Part shown: positions 18,739 through 41,048 of the stretch, one piece after another
Layout: each line of letters starts with the position of its first letter
Position numbering within the stretch: the stretch's first letter is position 1
Source: Bacteroidota bacterium
GTDB taxonomy: Bacteria; Bacteroidota; Bacteroidia; B-17B0; Aurantibacillaceae
Length of the DNA stretch: 64,000 nt
Direction of reading: 5' to 3'
Assembly (NCBI GenBank): GCA_019638705.1
Contig: JAHBTI010000017.1
Span: 1 to 64,000 of the forward strand
Made by a program: the position numbers and the translations under genes
Notes under the pieces: model-generated
Told to the model about the DNA's origin: nothing
Databases searched by the model: none
Seen by the model: the letters and a program-made list of their open reading frames with translations, nothing else

Positions 18739-19858
18739 TGCGCAACTCTCCTGCAAACGCCTTCCGCAAAACACTCTTTTTCAACTCTTCCAAATCATCT
18801 ATTTTCTTTTGATACACTGCTTCCAACTTTTGCGTTTCGGCTCGCAGGGCATCTAATTGGCGGACGATGGTTTGTTGCTCTTCAAGTGAAGGAAATGGGA
18901 AATACTGAGTTTCAAAAGTTCCCAAATTGATATTGTCTTGGGCACTTCCCTTTCCTAACTTCTGTAGTTCTGCTTTGAAATATTGCAACAAGTAATAAGC
19001 AAAATTCAAGTCGGCTTTTTTCTCATCAACTTCAAAACCGATAATGCTATCAGGAATACAAGCATCAAAATCTAAAATTGCTGTCTCTGCAATATTTGCA
19101 GCAATAGTTATGCAAATAGTTCCTTTCTTCCAAAGTTTACTTTGTGCTAATCCAGCTTCATTATATGTCTGAGTGTAATTTGAAATATATTTATTTGCAT
19201 TGCGAACTTCTCCCGTCTGAATAAATGGATATTTACCACCATACAATCCTTCCCAATTTCTTGGTCTGTGTTTTGATTTTCCACGTCCAAAAACTTTTGC
19301 AACATCTTGTAATTTCTTTTTTTCCCACTTCCCATTTTCAAACACCCCCTGCAAATAACTTTCAAAAAGCTCCTTCGTATTTTTCAGGTTTTGTTGGGCA
19401 TTGTTTTTTGCCTGCTCAGTAGCCGAAAAGGCTTTGTCTAAAATGGAAACAATGCGGTGTTGTACTTCAAGTGGAACGTAAGGAAAATATTCGTTTTGAT
19501 AATCTTTAAAATAAATATGCGGAATGGCTGCACCTGCAACATACTTTTTGAAATCTATGGTTTGTAAGTAGTAATACAAGTAATTCAAATCAATTCCGTC
19601 TTTTGGAAAAAGATATTGCAATGTTCCGATAACAGAAGTTTTAGCTTCCATTTTCGTTACACGCCCAACGCCCGAACCATCTTTCACGATTGATAAATAC
19701 GGTTTTTCATTATGATAAAAACTTACGTTTTTGATAAAACCGCTTGCACCAAAAATTGGATATTCGCCTTCTTCATTCGTCAACTGATTTTGTGAAACAT
19801 TTGACGAGCCTTTCTCGCAAACATCCCCCAACTTCTTTATTTGCCAACCTTGCTTCAT
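18695..19858 (-). CDS. hsdS: type I restriction-modification specificity subunit
   Basis: 387-aa S subunit that sets the DNA target for both methylation and cleavage. It has two target-recognition domains. The first runs from MKQGWQIKKLGDVCEKG to about 120, with a central helix (EVQHRIVSILDKAFSATEQA). The second begins at KKLQDVAKVFGRG near 182, with a distal helix (SLEEQQTIVRQLDALRAETQ). The family's usual end KAFAGEL is followed here by RSPEGAGYISIAPRI, which is translated REP sequence and brings its own stop. The start codon overlaps the stop of the ORF6N gene (ATGA), so they are translationally coupled. Confidence 0.93.
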   Translation of the reverse strand: MKQGWQIKKLGDVCEKGSSNVSQNQLTNEEGEYPIFGASGFIKNVSFYHNEKPYLSIVKDGSGVGRVTKMEAKTSVIGTLQYLFPKDGIDLNYLYYYLQTIDFKKYVAGAAIPHIYFKDYQNEYFPYVPLEVQHRIVSILDKAFSATEQAKNNAQQNLKNTKELFESYLQGVFENGKWEKKKLQDVAKVFGRGKSKHRPRNWEGLYGGKYPFIQTGEVRNANKYISNYTQTYNEAGLAQSKLWKKGTICITIAANIAETAILDFDACIPDSIIGFEVDEKKADLNFAYYLLQYFKAELQKLGKGSAQDNINLGTFETQYFPFPSLEEQQTIVRQLDALRAETQKLEAVYQKKIDDLEELKKSVLRKAFAGELRSPEGAGYISIAPRI

Positions 19859-20736
19859 ATCAATTTCAAAATTGCGTTCATAATATTGCTTACACTTTCT
19901 TTTTCCATTTTAGAAAAAGCAAACCATTTTTTGCCCAAATCTTTTAATGATGCACCCAAATGGTAAATTTCTTTTTGGTCAATTATCAAAAAGCGGTCGT
20001 GGCTTTGGGTAAAGGTTTTGGCGGTAAAATTGCCGTATTGTGTGTTGGCTTTTTGCACATCAAGCGTTAGTTGTTTGCTTATGTTTTTGCTGAGCAACAA
20101 TACGCTTGTGCCTTTTTTCTTTTTGGCTAAATGCGTAAGTGTGGTTTCGTCAATATAGTTATCAATCAACGCAATGTTTTGTTTAGCCGAGCGTATAATT
20201 TTAGAGGCGAGTTCGTAGGCATCAAACACCTGTCCGTCAAAAAACACACCTTGTGTGGGAATGGTGTTTCCTTCCAATGCTTTAAATACTTTTTCAAACT
20301 TTTGGTCGGTTTCAAGTTGTTTGCGTTCAATGCCGTCCATACGTTGCAATAGTCCGTTGTGGTTGGCAATAAGTTTACGCATTTCTACAAAAGCCCGCAT
20401 AATGGCAACGTGTATTTTTGAAGCTGTTTCACTTTTTAACACGCCCGATAAGCCCGAAACTCCCTGTTCAGTAAAAGCGAAAGGTAATTTTCTTCTGCCT
20501 CCGTGTTCACTTGATGTCACATTTTGTGATGTCAAGTTATTCCATTCTTCTTGTGTGAGTTGAAACATAAAATCACTAGGAAAACGGTCAATGTTTCGTT
20601 TTACAGCTTGATTAAGGGCTCTGGTTTCTACTTGATACATTTCCGCCAAATCGCTATCAATCATTACCTGCACGCCACGAATGTTGAAAATTTTGTTTTC
20701 AATTTGCTTTTGCGATATGCTTAATTCGTTGCTCAT
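19855..20736 (-). CDS. ORF6N-domain protein with PLD-like C-terminal domain
   Basis: About 293 aa. The N-terminal ORF6N domain (NIRGVQVMIDSDLAEMYQVE, RNIDRFPSDFMFQLT, FAFTEQGVSGLSGVLKSE) is the DNA-binding module of phage antirepressor-like proteins. The C-terminal half (FDAYELASKIIRSAKQNIAL, QSHDRFLIIDQKEIYHLG) resembles a phospholipase-D-like fold. I prefer ATG 20736 because a GTTGCA-N5-TGCAAC dyad covers the region of upstream starts. It sits between hsdM and hsdS and overlaps hsdS by 4 bp, so it is probably expressed with the system. A 29-bp quasi-palindrome lies within its coding sequence. Confidence 0.85.
   Translation of the reverse strand: MSNELSISQKQIENKIFNIRGVQVMIDSDLAEMYQVETRALNQAVKRNIDRFPSDFMFQLTQEEWNNLTSQNVTSSEHGGRRKLPFAFTEQGVSGLSGVLKSETASKIHVAIMRAFVEMRKLIANHNGLLQRMDGIERKQLETDQKFEKVFKALEGNTIPTQGVFFDGQVFDAYELASKIIRSAKQNIALIDNYIDETTLTHLAKKKKGTSVLLLSKNISKQLTLDVQKANTQYGNFTAKTFTQSHDRFLIIDQKEIYHLGASLKDLGKKWFAFSKMEKESVSNIMNAILKLI
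20509..20537. promoter_or_regulatory. 29-bp quasi-palindrome inside the ORF6N-PLD gene
   Basis: ACTTGATGTCACA ... TGTGATGTCAAGT is symmetric about 20523, with two G/T mismatch pairs and one central T/T pair. On the coding strand the axis falls on the first base of codon 72 (Asn), directly after TCA CAA (Ser-Gln). The same codon-relative position is palindromic in the other two ORF6N genes. Confidence 0.75.
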
Positions 20737-20753
20737 CTTTTCTTTTTTCAATG

Positions 20754-20770
20754 GTTGCATTTTTTGCAAC
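20754..20770. promoter_or_regulatory. dyad upstream of the ORF6N-PLD gene
   Basis: GTTGCA-N5-TGCAAC is a perfect 6+6 dyad located 18-34 bp before the preferred start codon. It shares the TTGC/GCAA half-sites seen upstream of other ORF6N genes here, but with a shorter spacer. Confidence 0.6.
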
Positions 20771-28094: not shown

Positions 28095-29612
28095 ATGAAC
28101 ATCTACACCCGCAAACAGCAATGGAAATACGGTTTGGCAATAGCCGCGCTGCTTATTGTGCTGGCTTCGTTTTGGTACACCAATAAGTTGGTAAAAAATA
28201 TTTCGGAAAATGAAAAACAAAAAGTGGAGTTGTGGGCAAAAGCCGTTCAGAAAAAAGCGAGCCTCGTAAAATTTACCAAAACACTTTTTGAACAAATAAA
28301 ATCGGGCGAAACAAAAAAAGCCGAACTCTTTGCCGAAGCCACCAAAGAAATTTCGCACGGCACAGATTTAACGCGCAACGACGGAATTTCATTTGCATTA
28401 AAAGTGTTGCAGGAAAACACCACCGTTCCTGTTATTCTTACCGATGACAACGACAAAATTCTCACACATCGCAATTTAGATTCGGCACAGGAAAAAAACT
28501 CTGCCTATTTGCAAGAGCAATTACAACTGATGAAAAATCTTTATCCGCCTGTGGAAATTGATGTGTACAAAGGCATTAAACAACGGTTGTATCACAAAGA
28601 CAGCCGCGTGTTTAACGATATAAAATTGGTGTTTGATAATTTGATTAAATCCTTTATTGATGAGGTGGCAATTAACTCCGCAGGTGTGCCTGTAATTTTT
28701 ACCAATCATAACCAAGACAGCATTATTGATATGGGAAAAATTGATGTGCATGAAATTGACACACCCGAAAAATTACAACTGAAATTGAAAGAGCTGGCAA
28801 ACGAAAACACACCCATTGAAATTGACATCGGCGAAAAAGAAACCAATTTTATTTTTTACGCGCCCTCCGAATTGCTCACGCAACTCAAATATTATCCGTA
28901 CATACAGTTTGGCATTATTGGTTTGTTTTTGTTGATTGCATACATTTTGTTCAGCACAGCGCGCAAAGCCGAGCAAGACCAAGTGTGGGTGGGCATGAGC
29001 AAAGAAACCGCACACCAACTCGGAACGCCGCTTTCATCTTTAATGGCGTGGAATGAGCATTTGCTGTCGCTTGGCGTTGATGAAAACATTGTGAGCGAAA
29101 TGCAACAAGATGTGAAGCGTTTAAATACAATCACCGACCGCTTTAGCAAAATCGGCTCTCAACCCACGTTGGCAAGCGAAAACATAAACGAGGTTTTGGC
29201 AAATGCCATTGAGTATTTAAGAAAGCGCACTTCCCGAAACGTGAATTACATTTTGAATTTACCCGAAGAAAATTTGTTGGTGAATTTAAGTGTGCCTTTG
29301 TTTGAATGGGTAATTGAAAACATTTGTAAAAACGCGGTGGACGCTATGGAAGGCAAAGGCACAATTACGGTTTCACTTTCTGAAATTCCAGAAGGCTTAA
29401 TAATTGACATCAGCGACACAGGCAAAGGCATTCCTAAATCAAAATTCAAAACCGTGTTTGAGCCGGGCTTCACTACCAAAAATCGCGGTTGGGGCTTGGG
29501 TTTGAGCCTTTGCAAACGCATTATTGAAACTTACCACAAAGGAAAAATATTTATCCTAAAAAGTGAATTGAATAAAGGTACTACGTTTAGAATTGAGTTG
29601 AAGAGAGAGTGA
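28095..29612 (+). CDS. membrane sensor histidine kinase
   Basis: 505 aa. The first membrane helix is at about 14-32 (LAIAALLIVLASFWYTNKL), then a periplasmic sensor region to about 270, a second helix (about 275-292; FGIIGLFLLIAYILFSTA), a dimerisation helix with phospho-acceptor His in KETAHQLGTPLSSL (near 311) and an ATPase domain (NICKNAVDAMEG, DTGKGIP, GWGLGLSLCKRII). No response regulator is adjacent. A copy of its last 35 codons survives at about 30330-30451. Confidence 0.92.
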   Translation: MNIYTRKQQWKYGLAIAALLIVLASFWYTNKLVKNISENEKQKVELWAKAVQKKASLVKFTKTLFEQIKSGETKKAELFAEATKEISHGTDLTRNDGISFALKVLQENTTVPVILTDDNDKILTHRNLDSAQEKNSAYLQEQLQLMKNLYPPVEIDVYKGIKQRLYHKDSRVFNDIKLVFDNLIKSFIDEVAINSAGVPVIFTNHNQDSIIDMGKIDVHEIDTPEKLQLKLKELANENTPIEIDIGEKETNFIFYAPSELLTQLKYYPYIQFGIIGLFLLIAYILFSTARKAEQDQVWVGMSKETAHQLGTPLSSLMAWNEHLLSLGVDENIVSEMQQDVKRLNTITDRFSKIGSQPTLASENINEVLANAIEYLRKRTSRNVNYILNLPEENLLVNLSVPLFEWVIENICKNAVDAMEGKGTITVSLSEIPEGLIIDISDTGKGIPKSKFKTVFEPGFTTKNRGWGLGLSLCKRIIETYHKGKIFILKSELNKGTTFRIELKRE

Positions 29613-29614
29613 AA

Positions 29615-30058
29615 ATGTTCAAAAACAAAATAAATAGTATTTTAATTTTCTTACTCCTTTTTGGATTCAATTCGTGTGACATGATGGATTCACAGGCACT
29701 TGAAGTTTATAATAACACAAATGATACATTATTCTGTTTTTGGGATACCGATAAGAGTTCGACTACAATTGGTAATAATCCTCTGAATTGGGCTTTAGAA
29801 ATTGAGGATAAAGACACGACATGGACAAAAGCGAATTTTCTTATGTTTCCAAAAGCGCAAAGCCAGTTTACAGATTACAATTGGCACTTAACTATTGATG
29901 AAAGCGAAACAAAAAGACTTTACTTACATTTTTATTCGGTGAGGAAATTTTATAATCAAGGAGTAAAATTGATTAAGCCGATAACACCTGATACAACGTT
30001 AGAATTTACATTAGATGAATTGCAAAAACTTAATTGGCAAGTTCATATTGGAAAATAA
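29615..30058 (+). CDS. lipoprotein of unknown function
   Basis: 147 aa from ATG 29615, 2 bp after the kinase stop; a GTG at 29609 is also in frame. A hydrophobic start ends in the lipobox GFNSC near residue 21. The mature part (ALEVYNNTNDTLFCFWDTD ... FYSVRKFYNQGVKLIKPI) has no recognisable motif. Tight spacing suggests translation with the kinase. Confidence 0.65.
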   Translation: MFKNKINSILIFLLLFGFNSCDMMDSQALEVYNNTNDTLFCFWDTDKSSTTIGNNPLNWALEIEDKDTTWTKANFLMFPKAQSQFTDYNWHLTIDESETKRLYLHFYSVRKFYNQGVKLIKPITPDTTLEFTLDELQKLNWQVHIGK

Positions 30059-30075
30059 TTTTTGGTAATCACAAA

Positions 30076-30122
30076 TTGCTACAAAATAAAGCAATCACAT
30101 TTTAAAATAGCTTGTAGCTTTG
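30076..30122 (+). promoter_or_regulatory. ORF6N-type promoter with dyad (decayed locus)
   Basis: The dyad TTGC-N11-GCAA (30076-30094) is followed 20 bp later by the -7 box TAGCTTTG (30115-30122). The block is nearly identical to that before the ORF6N gene at 31083 and drives only a 13-codon remnant. Confidence 0.7.
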
Positions 30123-30147
30123 TTCTATAAACAAATACTTTAAACGT

Positions 30148-30189
30148 ATGAGCGAAGCAGTAGCATTAACAGACGAAAACAACTTTTAG
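30148..30189 (+). pseudogene. ORF6N gene remnant (first 12 codons)
   Basis: ATG at 30148 encodes MSEAVALTDENNF and then stops. The start matches the conserved N-terminus of ORF6N proteins (compare IALADETVISK of the gene at 31083), and the upstream promoter is the same. The rest of the gene is missing; downstream sequence is unrelated until the kinase fragment. Confidence 0.65.
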
Positions 30190-30329
30190 TTTTTTTCTCT
30201 TAAAACATAAACGCTTCCTTTCCTTTTTCCAATCATTGTAAGTGCTTGTTCGTCCCGCAGGTATCCGTATTTTATCCGAAAAAAGGATTGGGTAAAGATA
30301 TGGAATATCCGTATTGTATCCATATTTTA

Positions 30330-30451
30330 TCCAAAATTGCGGTTTAGGTTTATGCAAACGCATTATTGAAACTTACCACAAAGGAAAAATCTTTATTCTG
30401 AAAAGTGAATTGAATAAAGGAACGACGTTTAGAATTGAGTTGAAGCGTTGA
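30330..30451 (+). pseudogene. fragment of a histidine-kinase 3' end
   Basis: Codons 30341-30451 read GLGLCKRIIETYHKGK and on to ELKR, then stop. They are almost identical to the last 35 residues of the kinase at 28095. Upstream homology fades within about 15 bp. It is a partial duplicate, probably left by recombination. Confidence 0.8.
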
Positions 30452-30505
30452 GCGTTTTTTTTAGTTCACAGATTAAATAAGCCTGCGCTTTTCAGAATAT
30501 CTGTT

Positions 30506-31012: not shown

Positions 31013-31059
31013 TTGCTACAAAACACAGCAATCACATTTTAAAATAGCTTGTAGCTTTG
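31013..31059 (+). promoter_or_regulatory. ORF6N-type promoter with dyad
   Basis: The dyad TTGC-N11-GCAA at 31013-31031 and -7 box TAGCTTTG at 31052-31059 lie 24 bp before the ATG. The first dyad base and the -7 box are 39 bp apart, as at 30076 and 40470. Confidence 0.7.
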
Positions 31060-31082: not shown

Positions 31083-31634
31083 ATGAAAAAAACAATAGCT
31101 TTAGCGGACGAAACCGTCATCAGTAAAATTTACTTTATCAGAAGTAAAAAAGTAATGTTAGACAGGGATTTGGCAGAAATGTATAGTGTAGAAACCAAAC
31201 GCCTGAATGAACAGGTAAGGCGCAATCTCAAACGTTTCCCGCCCGATTTTATGTTTCAATTAACAGAGGAAGAAAGCAATTCTTTAAGGTCGCAAATTGC
31301 GACCTTAGAAAAGGGTCAGGGAAAACACACAAAATATTTGCCGTATGTTTTTACCGAACAAGGCGTAGCCATGCTTTCAAGCGTATTAAACAGCGAAACC
31401 GCTATTGAAGTAAACATTCAAATTATTCGCATTTTTACGCGAATGCGCGAAATTCTTTTAACGCACAAAGATGTTTTGATTAAGTTAGAACAATTGGAAA
31501 AGAACATGGTCATTCAAAATGAGATAACGAAAAAACACGAAAACGAAATTCAGGTTATCTTTAAAGCGTTGAAACAACTTTTAAATCCGACTGTGCCAAG
31601 AAAAAAAATTGGTTATAACGTAAAAGAAGATTGA
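31083..31634 (+). CDS. ORF6N-domain DNA-binding protein
   Basis: 183 aa. The N-terminal ORF6N domain (KVMLDRDLAEMYSVETKRLN, RNLKRFPPDFMFQLTEEE, YVFTEQGVAMLSSVLNSE) covers about residues 10-115. A helical tail predicted to form a coiled coil (about 120-165) follows. The domain is known from phage and viral antirepressors; chromosomal copies have no established role. A 23-bp perfect palindrome in codons 68-75 encodes LRSQIATL. The stop is 4 bp before dprA, so both are likely on one transcript. Confidence 0.88.
   Translation: MKKTIALADETVISKIYFIRSKKVMLDRDLAEMYSVETKRLNEQVRRNLKRFPPDFMFQLTEEESNSLRSQIATLEKGQGKHTKYLPYVFTEQGVAMLSSVLNSETAIEVNIQIIRIFTRMREILLTHKDVLIKLEQLEKNMVIQNEITKKHENEIQVIFKALKQLLNPTVPRKKIGYNVKED
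31285..31307. promoter_or_regulatory. perfect palindrome inside the ORF6N gene
   Basis: TAAGGTCGCAA-A-TTGCGACCTTA, 11+1+11 bp with no mismatch. The axis (31296) is the first base of codon 72 (Ile), directly after TCG CAA (Ser-Gln). A single-base loop excludes a normal RNA hairpin and favours recognition as DNA. Confidence 0.85.
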
Positions 31635-31638
31635 GAAA

Positions 31639-32748
31639 ATGACACACGACCTTTTATATCAAACAGGCTTAACATTGATTGACGGCGTTGGCGATGTAAA
31701 TGCTAAATCCCTGCTCGCCTATTGCGGCAACGCCGAAGAAGTATTTAAGCAAAAGAAAACGCATCTTCAAAAAATACCCGGCATTGGCGAAGTGCTTGCC
31801 AAATCGGTTATTGAAAGCAAACACGTTTTAAACCGCGCCGAAGAAGAAATAAAGTTTATTGAAAAATATCAAATTCAAACCTTGTTTTTCAGCGACGAAA
31901 ATTATCCTTCGCGCTTAAAGTATTGCAGCGACAGCCCCGTGATGCTTTACTACAAAGGCAATGCCAACTTAAACGCCGAACGCATTGTGAGCGTTGTGGG
32001 CACTCGCAACCCGACTGATTATGCCAAACAAAAAACACAAGAACTCGTAAAAGAATTAAGCGACAGCGGCGCACTCATCATCAGCGGTTTGGCGTACGGC
32101 GTTGATGTGTTGGCGCACAAAACTGCTTTGGAAAATAATTTGCAAACCGTTGGCGTGTTGGCTCACGGCTTAGACCGCATTTATCCGCAAACGCACGATA
32201 AAATTGCCAAACGCATGATTGCACAAGGCGGTTTGCTCACCGATTTTATGAGCGGCACAAATCCCGATGCGGTAAATTTCCCAAAACGAAACCGCATTGT
32301 GGCGGGGCTTTGCGATGGGCTGGTAGTAATAGAGAGCGGGCGCAAAGGCGGCAGCTTAATTACGGCAACCATTGCCAACAGCTATAATAAAGATGTGTTT
32401 GCTTTCCCCGGCAGAGCAGGCGAAACGCAAGCCGAAGGCTGCAACGGCTTAATAAAACAAAACCGCGCCGCATTAATTGAAAGTGCTGCCGATTTGTTAG
32501 ATGCCATGCAATGGCTGCCGCAAGAAACAAAAGAAAAAAAGAAATCTTCGCAAATTCCTTTGCCCGTTAATTTAAGCGAAGAAGAAAAAACCGTTTTAAA
32601 TTCATTTTCCGAAAAAACAATTTTGCATATTGACGAATTATGCAGCAATTCTCAATTTCCAATCAGCAAAGTATCTGCGCTTTTATTACAATTGGAATTT
32701 AGCAATCTGATAAAAAGCAAACCGGGGAAAATGTATGAAAGAGTGTAA
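31639..32748 (+). CDS. dprA: DNA-processing protein DprA
   Basis: 369 aa. DprA loads RecA on incoming single-stranded DNA in natural transformation. An N-terminal helix-hairpin-helix-like region (IDGVGDVNAKSLLAYCG) is followed by the Rossmann-type DprA core (VVGTRNPTDYAKQKTQELVK, SGLAYGVDVLAHKTAL, FPKRNRIVAGLCDG, GRKGGSLITA) and a C-terminal winged-helix-like domain. Length and motifs are normal. It begins 4 bp after the ORF6N stop. Confidence 0.95.
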   Translation: MTHDLLYQTGLTLIDGVGDVNAKSLLAYCGNAEEVFKQKKTHLQKIPGIGEVLAKSVIESKHVLNRAEEEIKFIEKYQIQTLFFSDENYPSRLKYCSDSPVMLYYKGNANLNAERIVSVVGTRNPTDYAKQKTQELVKELSDSGALIISGLAYGVDVLAHKTALENNLQTVGVLAHGLDRIYPQTHDKIAKRMIAQGGLLTDFMSGTNPDAVNFPKRNRIVAGLCDGLVVIESGRKGGSLITATIANSYNKDVFAFPGRAGETQAEGCNGLIKQNRAALIESAADLLDAMQWLPQETKEKKKSSQIPLPVNLSEEEKTVLNSFSEKTILHIDELCSNSQFPISKVSALLLQLEFSNLIKSKPGKMYERV

Positions 32749-40469: not shown

Positions 40470-40516
40470 TTGCTACAAATTATGGCAAGACTTTGTTTAA
40501 TAAGGTTTTAGTTTTG
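40470..40516 (+). promoter_or_regulatory. ORF6N-type promoter with dyad
   Basis: The dyad TTGC-N11-GCAA at 40470-40488 and -7 box TAGTTTTG at 40509-40516 have the same 39-bp spacing as the copies at 30076 and 31013, although the surrounding bases differ. The ATG at 40524 is 7 bp after the -7 box. Confidence 0.7.
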
Positions 40517-40523
40517 TAGTATC

Positions 40524-41048
40524 ATGCAAATACAAAACATACATTCAAAAATTTATGAAGTGCGCGGGCAAAAAGTAATGCTTGACTTTGACCTTGCGGA
40601 ACTTTACGAAGTGGAAACACGGGTTTTAAATCAAGCCGTAAAACGAAACATTGATATTTTTCCCGAAGATTTTATGTTTCAACTTAGCCCAAAAGAATGG
40701 GAAATGAACTCATCACAAATTGTGATGAGTTCTAAAAAACACAGAGGCAGCGCGTATTTGCCGCTTGCTTTTACCGAACACGGCGTTACCATGCTTGCCA
40801 ATGTTTTGAAAAGTAAAAAAGCGAGGCAAACGAGCATTGCCATAGTAAGAGCATTTATTGCGCTTAAACAATTTGCGTTGAATTACAAGGAAATTGCCGA
40901 GAAACTGCACGAGCTTGAAAGCAAATACAACACGCATTTTAAAGATGTGCAGCAAGCTTTGGATTATTTGCTGAAAAAAGACAAACAAAAAGTGCAACAG
41001 GAAATTGTGCAAACAGAAAGAGAACGCATCGGCTACAAAAACAAGTAA
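40524..41048 (+). CDS. ORF6N-domain DNA-binding protein
   Basis: 174 aa. The ORF6N domain spans about residues 5-110 (EVRGQKVMLDFDLAELYEVE, RNIDIFPEDFMFQLSPKEWE, LAFTEHGVTMLANVLKSKKA). A helical, coiled-coil-prone tail (115-170) follows. It is a paralogue of the genes at 31083 and 19855. A perfect 27-bp palindrome in codons 61-70 encodes part of MNSSQIVMSS. It stands alone, with unrelated neighbours. Confidence 0.88.
   Translation: MQIQNIHSKIYEVRGQKVMLDFDLAELYEVETRVLNQAVKRNIDIFPEDFMFQLSPKEWEMNSSQIVMSSKKHRGSAYLPLAFTEHGVTMLANVLKSKKARQTSIAIVRAFIALKQFALNYKEIAEKLHELESKYNTHFKDVQQALDYLLKKDKQKVQQEIVQTERERIGYKNK
40706..40732. promoter_or_regulatory. perfect 27-bp palindrome inside the ORF6N gene
   Basis: GAACTCATCACAA-A-TTGTGATGAGTTC, 13+1+13 bp with no mismatch. 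The axis (40719) is the first base of the Ile codon after TCA CAA. Compared with 31285-31307, the Ser codon changes TCG to TCA while the Ala/Val codon changes GCG to GTG, which keeps the symmetry. Confidence 0.88.

Follow-up and report, generated by a model that had tools for sequence, protein, structure and literature searches.

A putative SOS box in front of, and a candidate self-operator inside, ORF6N regulator genes of a Bacteroidota genus

For Bacteroidetes, Sanchez-Osuna et al. described a repressor type consisting of HTH and S24 domains, with CTAA-N5-TTAG and GGA-N5-TCC as the main motifs, and reported a diverged motif, TTAC-AAATT-GTAA (PMC8565304); the main text of that study makes no mention of ORF6N, KilA or DinD. 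LexA-controlled prophage antirepressors are known from the Gifsy phages (PMC3121763), and C.Kpn2I, the C protein of a restriction-modification system, binds within its own coding region, where it acts as an elongation roadblock (PMC6237814). Proteins of the ORF6N, KilA-N, Bro-N, RhuM and DinD families, to which we assigned members by Pfam/NCBIfam profile matches, abound in bacteria and phages. We found no binding site for a prokaryotic member of these families in the literature searched, and no description of an intragenic operator or palindrome in any of them in the open full-text literature.

As in the non-canonical LexA regulons of Bacteroidetes (PMC8565304), a palindrome of 4-N5-4 geometry is found here before recA, umuD, dinB and ruvB, together with an HTH plus S24 repressor and the absence of canonical LexA, whereas the motif itself differs, being CTAC(T)-N5-GTAG with TTG/CAA flanks. 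The likeness to the Gifsy antirepressors (PMC3121763) is that small phage-type regulator genes appear to be under SOS control, with an SOS box in front of them; the Gifsy proteins, however, bind a repressor protein, while the genes described here are mostly stand-alone and chromosomal and show evidence of a DNA site of their own. As for C.Kpn2I (PMC6237814), the candidate binding site of ORF6N lies within the coding region of the regulator, but ORF6N is another family, its candidate site covaries with the recognition helix across phyla, and the roadblock is in this case what we infer.

The window, by which we mean the whole stretch of 64,000 nucleotides that was analyzed, encodes three ORF6N proteins with PF10543 profile scores of 123.3, 117.5 and 122.5 bits (curated cut-off 27.8), and their genes and upstream elements are the following.

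19855..20769, minus strand: ORF6N gene of the restriction locus, 304 aa, with a Q in the helix and without an SOS box
30076..30094, plus strand: degenerate candidate SOS box preceding an ORF6N remnant
30115..30122, plus strand: -7 box TAGCTTTG of the ORF6N remnant
30148..30189, plus strand: truncated ORF6N start (MSEAVALTDENNF, then a stop), a 13-codon remnant
31013..31031, plus strand: candidate SOS box TTGCTACAAAACACAGCAA of the ORF6N gene at 31083-31634, with the right half-site one mismatch from the consensus
31052..31059, plus strand: Bacteroidota -7 box TAGCTTTG, 39 bp past the first dyad base
31083..31634, plus strand: ORF6N (PF10543) regulator gene, 183 aa
40470..40488, plus strand: candidate SOS box TTGCTACAAATTATGGCAA of the second ORF6N gene, a complete match to the consensus
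40509..40516, plus strand: -7 box TAGTTTTG, 39 bp past the first dyad base
40524..41048, plus strand: ORF6N gene, 174 aa, in which helix residue Q37 predicts TCAC

An earlier sequence-only reading had drawn attention to a dyad, TTGC-N11-GCAA, at 30076, 31013 and 40470, followed in each case by a TAnnTTTG box exactly 39 bp from the first dyad base. Both the dyads and the spacing were confirmed, with TAnnTTTG starting at 30115, 31052 and 40509. As evidence on its own the bare dyad had to be rejected, because it occurs in the window at chance frequency (5 matches against 4.55 ± 2.06 expected). In the upstream regions of ORF6N genes from the genus we found a longer imperfect palindrome, TTGCTACAAWTTGTAGCAA, and in 40 genomes of the genus TGCTAYAAWNYNTRGCMA gave 83 sites, summed over both strands, as compared to 4 when the pattern was reversed as a control. 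At 30076 and 31013 the right half-site (AAAGCAA and ACAGCAA, respectively) deviates from RTRGCAA by one mismatch. Of 75 distinct sites, 39 have a TAnnTTTG that begins at +39, 4 have it at +40 and 3 at another place within 95 bp; the background of the exact TAnnTTTG is 0.0007 per position, and it is therefore clear that the spacing rule is real and general. The box is present upstream of 27 of the 53 ORF6N genes of the genus, as opposed to none of 53 in the downstream control, so that the dyad is not missing before orthologous genes; outside the genus it precedes 2 of 86. The view of a promoter-linked, operator-like dyad located at a constant position over the -33 region, amounting to more than recent duplication, thus holds. 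A further dyad pointed out at the restriction locus, GTTGCA-N5-TGCAAC, is indeed present, but it lies at or slightly over the gene start; with its different geometry it was rejected as another form of the module. A duplication at 29500-30460 repeats the tail of a histidine-kinase-like gene around the truncated ORF6N start, which keeps its promoter and the degenerate box. Elsewhere in the window a gene for a ParE-type toxin (PF05016, 38464-38775) adjoins a small upstream ORF.

The idea that the module belongs to ORF6N promoters was not borne out, because the identical box stands at the same distance before recA (TIGR02012), radA, ruvB, an S24 UmuD-like gene, a Y-family polymerase gene (dinB/IMS) and dinD (NF008573), the latter twice, and the original interpretation as a whole is thus partly supported. 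Also behind the box are YifB, a PA0069-type radical SAM gene and a Pif1-like helicase gene, as well as RhuM, KilA-N and Bro-N genes. SOS boxes were in addition seen before genes for IS200-like (Y1_Tnp) transposases, PDDEXK_3, DUF6934 and DUF2851 (L189, L205, L226, L235, L229, L276, L220). The DNA-binding domain of canonical LexA had no match in a profile search of the genome, and the single S24 match is a protein with HTH_3 and S24 domains, whose gene carries the variant box CTATATTTTGTAGCAATG (CTAT-N5-GTAG) over its own start codon, with a left flank other than TTG. Since one box at equal distance precedes recA, radA, ruvB, umuD, dinB and dinD, this single HTH+S24 (LexA-like) protein is the repressor to be expected. 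Our verdict, judged from these sites, is that the upstream dyad represents a diverged Bacteroidota SOS box, CTAC-N5-GTAG with an AAWTT spacer. The Bacteroidetes SOS regulon is characterized by a shared palindrome upstream of core SOS genes and by an HTH+S24 repressor in place of canonical LexA, all of which were found; neither of the two main published motifs was matched, the motif here being CTAC/T-N5-RTRG with the 4-N5-4 geometry kept.

Inside the ORF6N genes there is a second palindrome, which is near-perfect, extends up to 31-35 bp and occupies one fixed coding place in nearly all of the ORF6N genes examined, from many phyla and from phages. The corresponding features in the window, with the helix codons referred to below, are as follows.

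20510..20536, minus strand: intragenic palindrome CTTGACATCACAAAATGTGACATCAAG of the restriction-locus ORF6N gene, with TCAC, matching the Q prediction
31194..31223, plus strand: codons for residues 38-47 (TKRLNEQVRR), the predicted recognition helix of the HTH
31209-31211, plus strand: codon of E43, which predicts TCGC
31285..31307, plus strand: intragenic perfect palindrome TAAGGTCGCAAATTGCGACCTTA, centre 31296, the proposed own operator
40706..40732, plus strand: intragenic perfect palindrome GAACTCATCACAAATTGTGATGAGTTC, centre 40719, which ranks first in strength among the palindromes of the window by the measure used

In 106 of 117 ORF6N genes from many phyla, sampled outward from one query's relatives and a single genus, the palindrome scores 12-15 of 15 at the same codon, while synonymous-codon controls obtained by resampling reach at least 12 of 15 in 0.9%. 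Among 142 distinct proteins the arms show Watson-Crick pairing at d4-d13 in 84-98%, where 37-86% would be expected from the column composition, with compensating changes and a sharp end at d16. Five ORF6N genes retain the identical DNA palindrome in a different reading frame, from which it follows that the constraint is on the DNA and not on the peptide. Copies also occur outside ORF6N coding spans, 32 in the fetched loci as compared to 2 and 0 for control cores, and some of these have a core that is mismatched to the neighbouring gene. ORF6N-type palindromes with several cores were seen as intergenic arrays or singles in L236, L237 (G024) and L238 (G031), either away from or directly upstream of an ORF6N gene, and the ORF6N genes L029, L089, L095, L284, L285 and L418 have two or three palindrome-coded segments in tandem. 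L418 has SQIATLE as its first segment, like the E-type TCGC genes, while its helix has Q and its second palindrome has TCAC, as if specificity had been changed through addition of a new site.

The bases of the palindrome can be foretold from the protein. Mutual information between the d4/d5 bases and the protein columns peaks at column -40 (1.53 bits, z 64) and is also high at columns -43 and -39; in the window protein these three columns correspond to E43, R40 and Q44, all within the predicted helix 38-47. At column -40, Q goes with TCAC in 62/62 and E with TCGC in 53/53 genes, R with TGCC in 14/17 and K with TTCC in 7/8, and this one helix residue predicts the d4/d5 class correctly in 136 of 142 genes. 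Column -44 tracks d7 (K with G in 75/75), and the wing columns +31 to +34 track d8-d11, as seen at d10 for column +33 (R with G in 77/77, K with A in 38/40). On a tree inferred with the helix and palindrome columns left out, the base class changes 45 times and the residue 47 times, and the supported independent contrasts agree in direction in practically every case (on average 9.0/9, 8.9/9, 5.9/6 and 3.0/3). When the code was applied to genes unused in deriving it (viral contigs and named plasmid/phage records from Bacteroidota, Legionella, Fusobacteriota, Spirochaetota and Campylobacterota), both arms fitted in 37 of 39 and one arm in the remaining 2, after re-centring with a tie-break for an A/T pair at d2 that was adopted once the first result had been seen; before this centring fix, 29 of 32 viral genes fitted, and one of the apparent misses, L285, proved to be a mis-centred palindrome.

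A fold model of moderate quality (mean pLDDT 76.5) makes residues 38-47 the second helix of the HTH and places the palindrome-coded segment, residues 72-81, in a low-confidence loop. No convincing PDB relative was found by sequence, and the fold matches in the PDB are weak (Dachshund/Ski, Z 7.0; RacA and pSK1 Par, Z 5.4). Paralogs within one genome are not clearly kept apart, as 15 of 41 pairs share the d4/d5 class as compared to 32% between genomes, and orthogonality among paralogs as a selective force was rejected because this signal is not significant. Taken from the sequence side, the code is strong evidence that each ORF6N protein would bind the palindrome of its own gene.

The code also bears on whether the upstream dyad could itself be an operator specific to ORF6N genes and a target of the ORF6N protein, which would agree with its presence before about half of the ORF6N genes of the genus (27 of 53) and with the CAAWTTG centre that it shares with many intragenic sites. 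This appears very improbable to us, because the same box has the same spacing before recA, radA, ruvB, umuD, dinB and dinD, because it stays constant although the ORF6N helices vary (Q, E, R, K), and because its bases outside the core, CTAC as opposed to TCRC, deviate from the helix code. We likewise give hardly any credence to the intragenic palindrome being an mRNA hairpin, with a role in decay, translation or anti-termination, rather than a DNA site. Long perfect arms around an AAWTT centre could certainly fold as RNA, but G-T combinations, the G-U pairs of such a hairpin, show no excess over A-C in the arms (9 against 8 at d7, 5 against 3 at d12), and it would be left unexplained why residues of a predicted DNA-reading helix foretell the bases at ±4/5.

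The copies outside ORF6N coding spans, the tandem palindromes of some genes and the arrays in G024 could instead reflect a small mobile or concerted-evolution element, either REP-like or arising from template-switching symmetry, that resides in ORF6N genes by chance. Such an element would hardly keep a fixed codon position across phyla, nor covary in its bases with helix residues encoded some 120 bp (40 alignment columns) away, and we find this explanation highly unlikely, though mobility or concerted evolution may act alongside selection for binding. As a RAYT/REP element the palindrome was rejected after a scan of four Y1_Tnp loci, two of which were without a palindrome, one had weak ones and one had two with other cores. 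Binding of ORF6N within its own gene might also serve a role other than repression, at a partition- or recombination-type site or in activation of transcription, as the weak similarity of its fold to the DNA-binding domains of RacA and pSK1 Par and the additional palindromes close to some genes could suggest. We regard this as unlikely but conceivable, given that no partition ATPase or nuclease domain is present in the ORF6N proteins scanned and that a site well within the transcribed region suits a roadblock best. Autorepression by ORF6N at its own site is the most likely reading.

Motif, spacing, regulon, intragenic palindrome, arm covariation and residue-to-base code can all be read off the DNA; binding by a LexA-like protein and by ORF6N, dimer formation and repression are what we infer in addition. 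In the circuit that we propose, the non-canonical LexA of the genus (HTH+S24) would sit on the dyad over the -33 region and block the promoter, and upon DNA damage it would cleave itself, turning the ORF6N gene on. The ORF6N protein, presumably a winged-helix dimer, would then bind the palindrome of about 31 bp within its own coding sequence, with helix residues reading positions ±4, 5 and 7 and wing residues reading ±8 to 11. Bound ORF6N would most likely stall RNA polymerase some 200 bp past the start codon, a roadblock being the best fit for a site so deep in the transcribed region, and expression of the ORF6N gene and of co-transcribed genes would become a self-limited pulse. We consider this whole circuit, a non-canonical LexA box upstream combined with a self-binding intragenic operator, to be highly probable. 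A dprA-like gene begins at 31639, 5 bp past the stop of the ORF6N gene at 31083-31634, and the SOS box and intragenic site of this gene may also govern it.

ORF6N regulators, which are widespread and uncharacterised, thus appear, as far as their genes tell, to have their own target sequence written into the genes that encode them. If each gene of the ORF6N, KilA-N, Bro-N, RhuM and DinD families does hold its own operator, the targets would be readable from sequence, and a naturally occurring code of protein-DNA recognition, comprising hundreds of cognate pairs, would become available. Each copy would bring its own control, and this would give a simple explanation for the spread and duplication of such genes. 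The SOS box would link the set of these genes in at least one genus to DNA damage.

Palindromes at a fixed position were also found in the other antirepressor-like families, in 20 of 28 RhuM genes (10-11 of 11; null 4%), 18 of 28 Bro-N genes (null 4%), 14 of 18 KilA-N genes (null 1%) and 4 of 9 DinD genes (null 0%), some of the DinD loci being counted under Bro-N too. These palindromes are family-specific. In RhuM, Bro-N and KilA-N their bases covary with residues ahead of the palindrome, in small numbers of 11-13 genes per family, which hints at a recognition code there as well. Scans of viral sequences contributed no RhuM, two Bro-N and one KilA-N loci. It is probable that ORF6N, RhuM, Bro-N, KilA-N and DinD share the principle of an operator inside their own gene that co-evolves with recognition helix and wing, in which case specificity and site would be passed on jointly within a single gene, from which the target of its protein could be read. 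In one Bro-N gene with an SOS box (L275, around 2240) the centre of the intragenic palindrome, CTACAAATTGTAG, equals the SOS-box core.
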